From the IMG/VR virus record IMGVR_UViG_3300020156_000050, positions 1 to 42,155 of that record: a stretch of DNA of 42,155 nt; one strand, written 5' to 3'. Position 1 is the stretch's first letter. The number at the start of each line of letters is the position of its first letter. A program made the position numbers and the translations under genes. The notes under the pieces were generated by a model. That model was not told where the DNA came from. It did not search any database and was given only the letters and a program-made list of their open reading frames with translations. This DNA is from a virus. Positions 355 to 36,837 of the stretch are shown in pieces.

Positions 355-425
355 CTGCTCCAGCTGGGGTCGAACCAACGCTACCCGGTCCAGGGCCGGG
401 CGTCCTGCCATTAGACTACGGAGCA
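355..425 (-). tRNA. tRNA-Gln (CTG anticodon)
   Basis: A complete 71-nt cloverleaf: acceptor TGCTCCG/TGGAGCA (7 bp with one G-T), D arm GTCT/GGAC, anticodon stem CCCGG/CCGGG with loop CCCTGGA, 4-nt variable region, T arm GTTGG/CCAGC around TTCGACC, discriminator G as expected for Gln. CCA is not encoded. Oddity: position 33 is C instead of the near-universal T. It may help decode CAG codons, which are frequent in this GC-rich genome. Confidence 0.9.
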
Positions 426-429
426 TCAG

Positions 430-502
430 CTGCCACGCCAGGACTCGAACCTGGAACCCCCCGATTAACAGTCGGGTGCTCTGCCCATTGAGCTACGAAG
501 CA
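430..502 (-). tRNA. tRNA-Asn (GTT anticodon)
   Basis: A complete 73-nt cloverleaf: D arm GCTC/GAGC, anticodon stem CCCGA/TCGGG with loop CTGTTAA, T arm CCAGG/CCTGG around TTCGAGT, discriminator G. The acceptor stem TGCTTCG/CGTGGCA has six pairs (one wobble) and one T-T mismatch at pair 5-68. No CCA is encoded. Its 5' end abuts the open end of a permuted tRNA-like unit with no spacer, and its 3' end is four bases from tRNA-Gln. Confidence 0.88.
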
Positions 503-577
503 AGGACCGGTGCTCTGCCATCTGAGCTACCCATCTGGCGACGGGATGGGACTCGAACCCATGACCTCCGGCGTGAG
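503..577 (-). tRNA. Circularly permuted tRNA-like unit C (3' half before 5' half)
   Basis: Read 5'->3' on the minus strand, the 3' half comes first: anticodon 3' strand GCCGG (572-568), variable AGGTC, T arm ATGGG-TTCGAGT-CCCAT, acceptor strand CCCGTC, then GCCA (539-536), then the 5' half: GATGGG, TA, D arm GCTC/GAGC, A26, and anticodon 5' strand CCGGT (510-506). The halves fit as one tRNA: CCCGTC pairs with GATGGG (6 bp, one wobble) and CCGGT with GCCGG (5 bp, one wobble). The acceptor stem therefore forms a hairpin whose loop is GCCA, and the molecule is open at the anticodon loop. TCAC before GCCGG resembles a tRNA-Asp or -Glu loop, but the isotype cannot be fixed. Alternatives: remnant of a rearranged array, or a decoy. 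Confidence 0.5.
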
Positions 578-643
578 GTGCTCTGCCGCTGAGCTACAGC
601 CGACTGGGTCAGCTGACAGGATTCGAACCTGCGACCATCCTCT
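574..643 (-). tRNA. Circularly permuted tRNA-like unit B with CCA loop
   Basis: Same reversed order as the neighbouring unit. 3' half: AGAGG (643-639), T arm GCAGG-TTCGAAT-CCTGT, acceptor CAGCTGA, C73, CCA (607-605). 5' half follows at once: G604, TCGGCTG, TA, D arm GCTC-AGCGGCA-GAGC, A26, CCTCA. TCGGCTG pairs fully with CAGCTGA (one G-T), and G604 pairs with C608, an 8-bp stem closed by a loop that is exactly CCA. A G at -1 opposite C73 is the tRNA-His hallmark, but no GTG anticodon is visible. The anticodon stem keeps 4 bp (CCTC/GAGG) plus an A-A mismatch. Its 3' end overlaps the start of the next unit by a few bases, so one transcript could not yield both intact. Confidence 0.45.
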
Positions 644-644
644 G

Positions 645-733
645 TGGACCTGATGGGAGTCGAACCCATGTTTCGGCAGGGACTGTTCCTGCCCCTTCAG
701 GCAGGCAGTATGTCGGCGAACCAGGACAGGCCC
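645..733 (-). tRNA. tRNA-like sequence of class II length, isotype unclear
   Basis: Acceptor strands GGGCCTG (733-727) and CAGGTCC (652-646) pair over 7 bp with one wobble, and a perfect T arm ATGGG-TTCGACT-CCCAT sits in the right place, with discriminator A. The 89-nt span suits a Ser/Leu-type tRNA with a long variable arm. The interior does not fold cleanly: no D arm is recognisable, and the best anticodon hairpin (TGCCT/GGGCA) has an 8-nt loop containing TGA. A competing hairpin (GGCAGG/CCTGCC) offers CAG without T33. It is probably a degenerate or highly derived tRNA. Confidence 0.35.
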
Positions 734-760
734 AGAGCAGAGGTTTCCCTCGCTCATAGT

Positions 761-766
761 TATATA
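761..766 (-). promoter_or_regulatory. Candidate promoter of the tRNA array
   Basis: Minus-strand ACGC-TATATA lies about 28 bases upstream of the first tRNA-like element, between it and a terminator-like hairpin. The preceding CGC resembles other start boxes in this genome. No -35 consensus is seen. Confidence 0.35.
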
Positions 767-8255: not shown

Positions 8256-8299
8256 ACACCCCCCAGAAGAAGTTCCGAAGAATCTCTTCCGGGGGGTGT
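8256..8299. repeat. Inverted repeat between divergent promoters
   Basis: ACACCCCCC / GGGGGGTGT (9 bp), then an A-C mismatch, then GAAGA / TCTTC (5 bp). It lies upstream of both divergent leaderless promoters, so it is outside both messages. That position suits an operator for a dimeric regulator or an insulating terminator for read-through. No candidate regulator can be assigned. Confidence 0.5.
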
Positions 8300-8319
8300 A
8301 CCCGCAGCGCCTCGCGCGC

Positions 8320-8325
8320 TAGAAT
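8320..8325 (+). promoter_or_regulatory. -10 box of a leaderless promoter (TAGAAT)
   Basis: CGCGC-TAGAAT, ATAGAT, then ATG at 8332. The same ATAGAT spacer follows the box at 15658, and AGAGAT follows the box at 32024. Confidence 0.65.
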
Positions 8326-8331
8326 ATAGAT

Positions 8332-8508
8332 ATGAACATCAACGAGATGACCGACGCACAGCTCCTCAACAGCACCCTCCCGGGCGCCATGGACGAAGCC
8401 GGCCGGCGAGGCTTCATGGTCAGCCCCTCGGGCAAGACCTTCCGCCGCGGCAACGCCGAGCAGAGCGCCCAGTGGGCGCGCGCCGGCTGGACCGTCTGCG
8501 CCGGCTAG
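8332..8508 (+). CDS. Small plus-strand protein (moron-like)
   Basis: 58 residues, MNINEMTDAQ onward, with a basic Gly-rich middle (SPSGKTFRRG). No family recognised. It is one of only a few plus-strand genes, with its own leaderless promoter. Its TAG stop and the TAG of the convergent sigma gene share one CTAG palindrome. Confidence 0.65.
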   Translation: MNINEMTDAQLLNSTLPGAMDEAGRRGFMVSPSGKTFRRGNAEQSAQWARAGWTVCAG

Positions 8509-9239
8509 TCGACCAGGGCCTCGCGCATCTTGGCGAGCGCCCGGCCGCGCTGGGTCTTCACGGTGCCCTTGGTGGACTCGAGGATGAGCGACACCTCCTC
8601 GTCCGACTTGGGCTCTCCACGGAAGCCGTAGACCAGCTCGATGACGTCCCGCTCGGCCGGCGAGAGCAGGCCGAGGGCGTAGTGGGCGAGGCGGTAGGTC
8701 TCCGCGTCCGCGGTCGGGACGCCGGCGCCCCAGGGCACGGTGACCCACTCGGAGTCGGCGTGGGAGAGGGCGTGCTGGATGGCCCGGAAGGTGTCGGCCG
8801 TCATGCCCATCGACGGTGCCAGCTCCGCCGCGCGGGCGTAGTCCTGGTCGGCGGCGCGCCAGACCTTGAACCAGCGGTCCAGGGTCCCGGACGGCACCGC
8901 CAGCGAGGTGGCCATCTCGGTCGCCACGCCCCGCAGGACGGTCGGCAGCACCTGCGCCAGCCGCACGTACCGGACGAGGTCGAACCCCTTGATGGCCTCC
9001 ACGGCCGCCAGGACAAGGTCGGCCTGGAGGTCCTCCACCTGCTCCGGGGTCATGCCCCGCACCGACGACCGCACGCGGTTCGCCGTCTTCTGCAGGATGC
9101 CCCTGTACTGGACCAGCAGGGCCCAGCTCGCGTCGCCGTCGCCGGCCTGCGCGCGGGTGATGAGGTCCCGCTCCTCCTCCAGGGCGAGCGACACGCGCCC
9201 GACCCTCGCCTTGAACAGCTCGTCCATCAGCCCTGCCAC
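8505..9239 (-). CDS. RNA polymerase sigma factor (phage-encoded)
   Basis: 244 residues with sigma70-like layout: region 2 (about 20-85; ALEEERDLITRAQAGDGDA and a helix ending VLAAVEAIKGFD), a linker, and region 4 (about 190-244; LGLLSPAERDVIELVYGF, a helix-turn-helix with GTVKTQRGRALAKMREAL). It would redirect host RNA polymerase to phage promoters. The recurring TANNAT boxes make it a candidate specificity factor, though TANNAT also fits host sigma-A. It is the last gene of the replication unit and converges with gene 8332. Confidence 0.72.
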   Translation of the reverse strand: MAGLMDELFKARVGRVSLALEEERDLITRAQAGDGDASWALLVQYRGILQKTANRVRSSVRGMTPEQVEDLQADLVLAAVEAIKGFDLVRYVRLAQVLPTVLRGVATEMATSLAVPSGTLDRWFKVWRAADQDYARAAELAPSMGMTADTFRAIQHALSHADSEWVTVPWGAGVPTADAETYRLAHYALGLLSPAERDVIELVYGFRGEPKSDEEVSLILESTKGTVKTQRGRALAKMREALVD

Positions 9240-14163: not shown

Positions 14164-14352
14164 CTAGCGGAGCCCCTGCCCGAACATGGCCGAGGCCATC
14201 AGCAGGGCGGTCTGCTCCGCCGGCGGGGTCGCGAACTCCTTAGCCAGGAGGGCGTCGCGGAACGTGGCCGCGAGGTCGGCGAAGCTGTTCGCCGCCTCGA
14301 TGATGTCGAGGGGGTTCGGGCCCTGGAGCTCGCCCGGCTTCGGGGCGGCCAT
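14164..14352 (-). CDS. Hypothetical small helical protein
   Basis: 62 residues; central helix LDIIEAANSFADLAATFRDAL, then a second Ala-rich helix. Coupled to the preceding gene by TGATG. Unknown function. Confidence 0.66.
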   Translation of the reverse strand: MAAPKPGELQGPNPLDIIEAANSFADLAATFRDALLAKEFATPPAEQTALLMASAMFGQGLR

Positions 14353-35643: not shown

Positions 35644-36837
35644 TCACGCGGTGAGCGTCAGCTTCACGAACGCGGTCGGACGGTACACCGCGAGGAGGAT
35701 GCGCTCCTCGGCCCGCAGGGCCACGCGGTTGTACTTGAAGTCGTCCTCGTTCGAGTTGGTCGAGTCGACCTGGATGCCACCCTTGCGGAACAGCTGGGCC
35801 GCCGTGCCGAACGCGCCGACCAGGACGGTGCCCTGGGCGATCGCGGGGGTCACGATGGTGCTGACGCCCCACAGCGGGGGGTTGCCGCCGGCGAACGGGC
35901 CGCCAGCGTAGTAGCGCTCGTCGCCGTCCTTCGCGAGGCGGAGGACCTCGTAGTCGGCCGGGTTGATGACGATGCCGTCAGCCGTCTCCTGCGCCGACCC
36001 GGTCGAGACCATGGTCAGGGCGTGGAAGATGGCGTCGAAGCCCTTCTGAGGCGTGTAGCCCGCGGAGGTCGCGTAGGTCTGGAGACCCGAGCGGTTCAGG
36101 ATACCGCGCAGGTTCGGGGCGGTACCCGAGCCGTTGAGGATCTGGTCCTCCTCGACCACCACGAGGCGGCCGACGAGCTGCGAGTTGATGACCGAGACCA
36201 GGTAGTCGGTGTCGCTCATGGCCTCGTCGGAGACCTTGGTGATGACCGCGATCTTCGACAGCGCCTCGGTGACCGGGCTGAAGTTGAAGTGGATCTGAGG
36301 CTTCAGACCCTCTTCGGCGACGGCCGCGGGCTCACCCTCGACCGCACCCTGCACCCAGTAGGTGAGGCTGGTGTTCTGCATCGCGCCCTGGCCGAGCAGG
36401 TTCGCGATGGTCAGGCGGCGCAGCGGGGTCGCGTAGACGCCACCGTACTGCACCTTGCCGTTGCCGTCCACCGTGTTGGTGTCGGTCGGCGCCTTGAACT
36501 CCGGAGCCGACGCGGTGCGCTGGCCCTGGCCCTTGAGGAACGCGGCCTGCGCGCCGGACTTGACGAAGTGCTCGCCGAGCGTGGCGGCCTTGGCGCCCGA
36601 GGGGGCGTCGGCCGAGTCGGTGACCTCGCCGGCCCCGCCCAGGTCGGCGACGGCCTGCATCAGCTTGGCGTTCTTCTCGCCGCGCTCGATGATGCCCTTG
36701 AGCTCGACCGCGCGGGCCGAGTCCTTCTCGATGTCAGCGGCTTCGGCGTCCGTGAGCTCACGGTTGGACGCCTTCACGCCCGCGACGATGGCGCTGAGCT
36801 TGGCCTGGATGGCGGCCAGTTCTGCCTTGGGGTCCAT
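35644..36837 (-). CDS. Major capsid protein (HK97 fold)
   Basis: 397 residues. Residues 1-~100 form a helical, charged delta-like scaffold (ADIEKDSARAVELKGIIERG) likely removed by the protease; the remainder has HK97 features, including LTYWVQGAVEGEPAAVAEEG (E-loop/N-arm region), a long spine helix region (SDEAMSDTDYLVSVINSQL) and AYRPTAFVKLTL at the end. GGGGAG precedes the ATG. Confidence 0.92.
   Translation of the reverse strand: MDPKAELAAIQAKLSAIVAGVKASNRELTDAEAADIEKDSARAVELKGIIERGEKNAKLMQAVADLGGAGEVTDSADAPSGAKAATLGEHFVKSGAQAAFLKGQGQRTASAPEFKAPTDTNTVDGNGKVQYGGVYATPLRRLTIANLLGQGAMQNTSLTYWVQGAVEGEPAAVAEEGLKPQIHFNFSPVTEALSKIAVITKVSDEAMSDTDYLVSVINSQLVGRLVVVEEDQILNGSGTAPNLRGILNRSGLQTYATSAGYTPQKGFDAIFHALTMVSTGSAQETADGIVINPADYEVLRLAKDGDERYYAGGPFAGGNPPLWGVSTIVTPAIAQGTVLVGAFGTAAQLFRKGGIQVDSTNSNEDDFKYNRVALRAEERILLAVYRPTAFVKLTLTA

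Follow-up and report, generated by a model that had tools for sequence, protein, structure and literature searches.

In the window, the tRNA-like unit with reversed halves at 572–642 probably opens a tandem pair of YrlA-type tRNA-mimic modules, which would act in trans as tRNA look-alikes. The modules would be a new version of the tRNA-like domain found in bacterial Y RNA, and the closing stem of each occupies the place of the anticodon stem. Bacterial Y RNAs have mostly been treated as partners of Ro60; here a phage keeps and doubles the tRNA-like half, and its host genus has no Ro60 that could be found. This suggests a separate function for the tRNA-mimic part.

Genome setting and organisation of the RNA cluster

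The window, meaning the whole stretch of 42,155 bases that was analysed, is a virus record as long as the genomes of its complete relatives. Its nearest relatives belong to the genus Dismasvirus of Microbacterium phages, at no more than 85% identity across 80% of the first 25 kb. The RNA cluster is small, sits at one genome end and lies on the minus strand, where it runs from a promoter-like box through a tmRNA-like element, the modules and the tRNAs to an HNH gene:

755–766, minus strand: promoter-like AT-rich box TATATAACTATG, also given as TATATAAC, 5′ of the RNA cluster (from sequence and relatives)
646–733, minus strand: tmRNA-like element (E0), with acceptor strands GGGCCTG/CAGGTCC, a D-like loop, an extended hairpin and a T arm
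572–642, minus strand: module 1, a YrlA-type tRNA-mimic and the unit described previously (RF02553, model R1, covariation with BAjuniper)
Parts of module 1, minus strand: closing stem 642–639/578–575, T arm 632–616, acceptor hairpin 615–597, D arm 594–580
504–571, minus strand: module 2, the second YrlA-type module (RF02553, model R1, compensatory pairs relative to BAjuniper)
Parts of module 2, minus strand: closing stem 571–568/510–507, T arm 562–546, acceptor hairpin 545–530, D arm 527–512
634–641, minus strand: 5′ strand of an alternative outer stem, AGGATGGT, from the minimum free energy (MFE) fold of BAjuniper; pairs with 511–503, with one bulged G
503–511, minus strand: 3′ strand of the alternative outer stem, ACCGGTCCT, ending directly before tRNA-Asn
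430–502, minus strand: normal tRNA-Asn(GUU) (ARAGORN; Rfam, 64.6 bits)
355–425, minus strand: normal tRNA-Gln(CUG) (ARAGORN; Rfam, 50.9 bits)
351–76, minus strand: HNH gene, the last in the cluster, after tRNA-Gln

The AT-rich box at 755–766 is found in most relatives; its promoter role is only suggestive, because a scan with the sigma-70 consensus gave no match for it. Two other ARAGORN calls on the plus strand, tRNA-Thr(cgt) at 14232–14319 and tRNA-Pro(agg) at 36066–36160, are probably false, as both stay below the cut-off of the Rfam tRNA model.

Relatives that lack the two modules carry another structured segment between the tmRNA-like element and the next tRNA. Judged by eye, this segment has a 9-bp stem (GCGG.....TGC) whose sequence varies while its pairing is kept; it lies at about 820–870 in L012, and the same slot is filled in L004, L006, L007, L010, L011, L013, L014 and L018. 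The slot after the tmRNA-like element seems to swap RNA elements. Several relatives also have a hairpin-like segment between tRNA-Asn and tRNA-Gln (L006 865–918, for example CCAGAGG...CCTCTGG; L005 866–920), a position at which the window has none.

Structure of the two modules

Read from the sequence on the minus strand, module 1 has the reversed order given in the earlier note: T arm, CAGCTGA-C, CCA, G-TCGGCTG and D arm. The two acceptor strands pair at eight of eight positions, with one G-T (T611-G601) among the pairs C615-G597, A614-T598, G613-C599, C612-G600, G610-C602, A609-T603 and C608-G604, and the loop at 607–605 is exactly CCA. The description of the neighbours was likewise accurate, in that tRNA-Asn (502–430) and tRNA-Gln (425–355) encode no CCA. 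The earlier note overlooked module 2, which adjoins module 1 in the same reversed order and whose hairpin, CCCGTC-GCCA-GATGGG (545–530), forms six of six pairs around a GCCA loop.

The modules stand in tandem, 70 nt apart, and each has its own closing stem, GAGG/CCTC in module 1 and CCGG/CCGG in module 2. In an alternative, modelled fold, both modules would lie inside a shared outer stem of possibly 8 bp (AGGATGGT/ACCGGTCCT), together with a central hairpin, ACCTC-ACGCCG-GAGGT. The separate closing stems and the shared outer stem are both preserved by the changes in BAjuniper, the outer stem with one A-to-G wobble change. The free-energy z-scores of the modules (−0.4 to −2.3) are close to those of the two normal tRNAs; since these unremarkable values do not discriminate, the case rests on covariation and not on stability.

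Rfam places a partial tRNA match of 30.2 bits (model positions 7–64) at 545–597, which combines the T arm of module 2 with the D arm of module 1. Only the core of this match fits a normal tRNA, and the reading was rejected because its acceptor strands, TCGGCTG and CCCGTCG, do not pair.

Compensatory changes in BAjuniper

A BLAST search among phages found it in BAjuniper alone, at 84% identity over 141 nt and with both modules, and an exact-pattern search of IMG/VR for module 1 gave no match. The tandem pair is thus found in two phages only, the window phage and BAjuniper. A BLAST match in a Stenotrophomonas phage was set aside as a relative because it spans two annotated tRNA genes, fMet and Ile.

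Hairpin 1 aligns without gaps between the two phages and differs by two double compensatory changes (A-T to G-C and C-G to A-T), with no pair broken. The compensating changes between acceptor strands that the earlier note had suggested looking for are therefore present in the one relative that has the element. Hairpin 2 differs by 3 nt in length. If the loop takes up the indel (CCCGTC-GCCA-GATGGG versus CCGCCC-CCTTCGC-GGGTGG), all six pairs are kept, with three double changes and none broken; default MAFFT opens the gap within the 3′ strand, so that three pairs appear broken. The loop placement is judged to be correct, because the near-identical T and D arms anchor the alignment and because the sequence of each phage folds into six pairs by itself.

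Because the pairing of both hairpins has been kept by compensatory change in BAjuniper, they appear to be selected structures and not debris. This comparison of sequences favours selection on the pairing, and it bears out the view that the two acceptor strands have been selected together. In all four modules of the two phages, the T-loop, the GG of the D-loop, the closing stems and the spacing are intact.

The expected frequency of such acceptor matches was estimated from 1,218 distinct acceptor pairs, drawn from the 1,663 tRNA genes of the fetched loci. Pairing at seven of seven positions between the 3′ acceptor strand of one tRNA and the 5′ strand of a different one arises in 0.46% of combinations; for adjacent tRNA genes, such a match is seen in 6 of 764 cases. 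In the window, the acceptor match occurs twice in succession, at eight of eight positions in module 1 and then at six of six in module 2.

The neighbouring tmRNA-like element

The element at 646–733 is found in Dismasvirus and Armstrongvirus, in 25 Microbacterium phage records by BLAST and also in BAjuniper by alignment. It is mostly unannotated, and BAjuniper labels its copy tRNA-Pro(agg). The copy in phage Franklin22 matches the tmRNA model RF00023 from the first to the last model position, with the middle missing, at 41.1 bits (E 2.5e-13; cut-off 47). The window copy reaches only 12.3 bits, and its tmRNA identity therefore rests on this homologue. Across nine phages, 12 of 27 pairs show double compensatory changes. 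The element is about 88–91 nt long and has one internal hairpin; it has neither a tag reading frame nor pseudoknots. Judged by sequence comparison, it resembles a tmRNA reduced to the tRNA-like domain with a capping hairpin. A separate Rfam match to the permuted tmRNA model was discarded as being at chance level (13.1 bits, E 1.8).

A tmRNA that consists only of the tRNA-like domain (TLD) is on record for the mycobacteriophage DS6A, and strong inhibition of tmRNA, which may come from titration of SmpB, is reported for a similar TLD-only molecule (PMC4131195). The Microbacterium element is likened to that of DS6A, independently of the DS6A sequence, in that phage tmRNA-like matter has been cut to little beyond the tRNA-like domain. 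It differs from the DS6A case in being unannotated or called tRNA-Pro, and in covarying over at least two genera.

Comparison with bacterial Y RNAs

In YrlA, as described in PMC8394870, a large stem formed from the two ends of the RNA binds Rsr/Ro60, and the tRNA-like domain resembles the D, T and acceptor arms. The window modules have this tRNA-like domain. Like YrlA (RF02553; Salmonella structure 6CU1), they present in order a T arm, a capped acceptor-like hairpin and a D arm above a short closing stem. Unlike YrlA, they are arranged in tandem, have CCA in the hairpin loop and lie within a tRNA array.

In an Rfam scan at a relaxed threshold, RF02553 (YrlA) scored module 2 at 43.2 bits (E 2.3e-8) and module 1 at 33.2 bits (E 1.8e-5), and the two modules of BAjuniper at 36.7 and 36.1 bits; none of these modules reaches the Rfam gathering cut-off of 69 bits. 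The cut-off was calibrated by a pattern search of IMG/VR for a T arm, a short segment and a D arm, in which matches were kept where the segment was a hairpin. Among the matches listed, 10 of the 16 contigs with such modules contain a TROVE (Ro60) gene. Eight sampled phage loci with putative Y RNA modules, six of them in TROVE contigs, scored 26–51 bits by RF02553. Since all of these Y RNA-type loci score below 69 bits, the cut-off does not exclude the window modules, whose scores fall within the range of the phage modules and are similar to those of the tested Ro60-linked ones.

For a covariance model, R1, 13 modules were taken from phages other than these two, and TROVE contigs supplied most of the 13. 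R1 scored window module 2 at 66.8 and module 1 at 55.4 bits, and the BAjuniper modules at 60.6 and 56.9 bits. Ordinary junctions between neighbouring tRNAs can score as high as about 58 bits by R1 (for example Arg-Lys in L254) and 30.5 bits by RF02553, and module 1 is accordingly not claimed from model scores alone. It is the hairpin covariation that carries the case, because score alone backs module 2 better than module 1.

Alternative explanations

The earlier note read the unit as a circularly permuted tRNA gene, which would be ligated at the anticodon and cut after CCA to give a functional, His-like tRNA with G-1:C73. The window indeed has the 3′ half upstream of the 5′ half, with an 8-bp acceptor pairing, and the exact CCA loop of hairpin 1 is retained in both phages. 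Known permuted genes (Cyanidioschyzon merolae, prasinophytes, Thermofilum pendens) likewise have the 3′ half first, with the acceptor strands across a short loop, and their intervening sequence can be very short (1 bp in the tRNA-Tyr of T. pendens; PMC3978253). However, the ends to be joined read CCTC-ACG/ACA-GAGG (CCTC-AAG in BAjuniper), with no T at position 33 and no conserved anticodon, and as read from the sequence they form no 7-nt anticodon loop with U33 in the window or in BAjuniper. The known cases, reported in a review from algae and one archaeon only, need bulge-helix-bulge (BHB) motifs at the junction (PMC3978253), and the annotation of BAjuniper lists no RNA ligase. Moreover, the second module follows in the same order and shares a flank, and its BAjuniper copy lacks the CCA loop; among the matches listed, most other modules also have loops without CCA, including UUCG and GNRA loops. 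The permuted-tRNA reading is therefore given up as highly improbable. If the modules were instead functionless debris of an ordinary tRNA array, in which a deletion between two tandem copies of the same tRNA left a 3′ half and a 5′ half, duplication of a single tRNA would explain the perfect 3′/5′ pairing at the junction, the CCA-bearing loops would resemble a tRNA end with encoded CCA fused to a 5′ end, and the absence of the element from most relatives would be natural. Such a duplication may account for the origin of the modules, but not for their later covariation: the double changes in BAjuniper preserve pairing, the tRNA-like features are intact in four of four modules, and a seven-of-seven match arises by chance at 0.5–0.8% of junctions. 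Debris is thus unlikely, though the origin itself may lie there. Among 49 distinct related hairpins of at least 6 bp in the matches listed, 40 have loops of 3–4 nt, including UUCG and GNRA tetraloops, and only this phage pair has a loop consisting of CCA or ending with it (module 1 in both phages, module 2 in the window only). Because CCA loops are confined to this pair, the CCA hints at origin, and its source would most simply be tRNA genes with an encoded CCA abutting a following 5′ end. We infer that either tandem tRNAs or a Y RNA gave rise to the modules, which were later kept as mimics.

A canonical Y RNA would bind Ro60/Rsr and tether it to PNPase. The match of the tRNA-like domain to YrlA speaks for such a role, as does the frequent presence of a TROVE gene, among the matches listed, in phages with RNAs of this kind. 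For Listeria phage CKA15, a Y RNA identity has been suggested for three highly transcribed regions that lie close to an Rsr-like gene (PMC12282133). Against it, the YrlA matches of the window modules cover only model positions 22–89 of 114, so that the Ro60-binding basal stem is unmatched, and the window modules lack the GTTAC segment that precedes many phage Y RNA modules. No TROVE gene was found in the window, BAjuniper, Dismas, Skylord or Franklin22, nor in any of 198 sampled Microbacterium genomes; one was found among 300 genomes of the host family Microbacteriaceae. A role as a canonical Y RNA is very doubtful on this evidence, and a Ro60 route could operate only with a Ro60 so diverged that the search missed it. 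Because the basal stem is unmatched and TROVE was not found, the modules are not classed with the Ro60-binding Y RNAs; their likeness to the tRNA-like domain of YrlA stands, as does the reading that they work like that domain.

Proposed mode of action

As tRNA mimics of the YrlA type, the modules would be co-transcribed with the tRNA array. They fit almost exactly between the 3′ end of the tmRNA-like element and the 5′ end of tRNA-Asn, and tRNA-processing enzymes could free them at these two ends. Contacts between T-loop and D-loop would fold them into a tRNA-like L, which TruB and Dus enzymes may modify, as PMC8394870 reports for the tRNA-like domain of YrlA with DusA and TruB. The modules might then serve in trans as stable decoys for proteins that bind tRNA (modification enzymes, PNPase or a tRNA-cleaving defence nuclease); with these proteins occupied, the real tRNAs of the phage would be spared. 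For the tRNA-like domain of YrlA, PMC7790460 proposes, as an idea not tested there, competitive inhibition of an anticodon nuclease.

A bolder and tentative proposal, for which the odds are against us, is a Ro60-independent class of phage RNA in which tandem Y RNA-type modules lacking the Ro60 stem are expressed along with the mini-tmRNA-like element as a decoy cassette and block tRNA-directed proteins of the host. Its targets could be defence nucleases and SmpB/trans-translation, during the use of the phage's own tRNAs. The adjoining mini-tmRNA-like element suggests a hidden layer of tRNA mimics in phage tRNA arrays. Annotation overlooks such elements or names them tRNA, as with tRNA-Pro(agg) in BAjuniper and the partial Rfam tRNA across the window modules. 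Relatives can be cultured in the laboratory on Microbacterium foliorum, so that these ideas can be tested.

Similar modules in other viral contigs

Many phage contigs show the design of T arm, capped hairpin and D arm, and a Ro60 gene often accompanies it on the contig. A broad search for closely spaced tandem T arms revealed no other pair with two good hairpins among the matches listed. The viral contig L140 offers a close single counterpart at 8273–8340, a YrlA-type module (R1, 61.3 bits) that likewise has only a closing stem, of 6 bp, and lies between tRNA-Arg and tRNA-Tyr in a contig without TROVE; unlike the window, it has one copy of the module.

A possible tandem pair of minimal modules is seen in L161 at 8950–9082 (R1, 48.5 and 43.7 bits), in which the second acceptor hairpin is only 3 bp long, yet has a 6-bp closing stem, CGGGGG/CCCCCG. 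Three successive Y RNA-type modules, spaced 127–162 nt apart and several of them with GTTAC, occur in each of the TROVE phage contigs L129 (4977–5300) and L175 (183–614). The 265-kb viral contig L207, which has no TROVE gene, carries an RNase P RNA gene (RF00010, 170 bits) and many tRNAs together with a Y RNA-type module.
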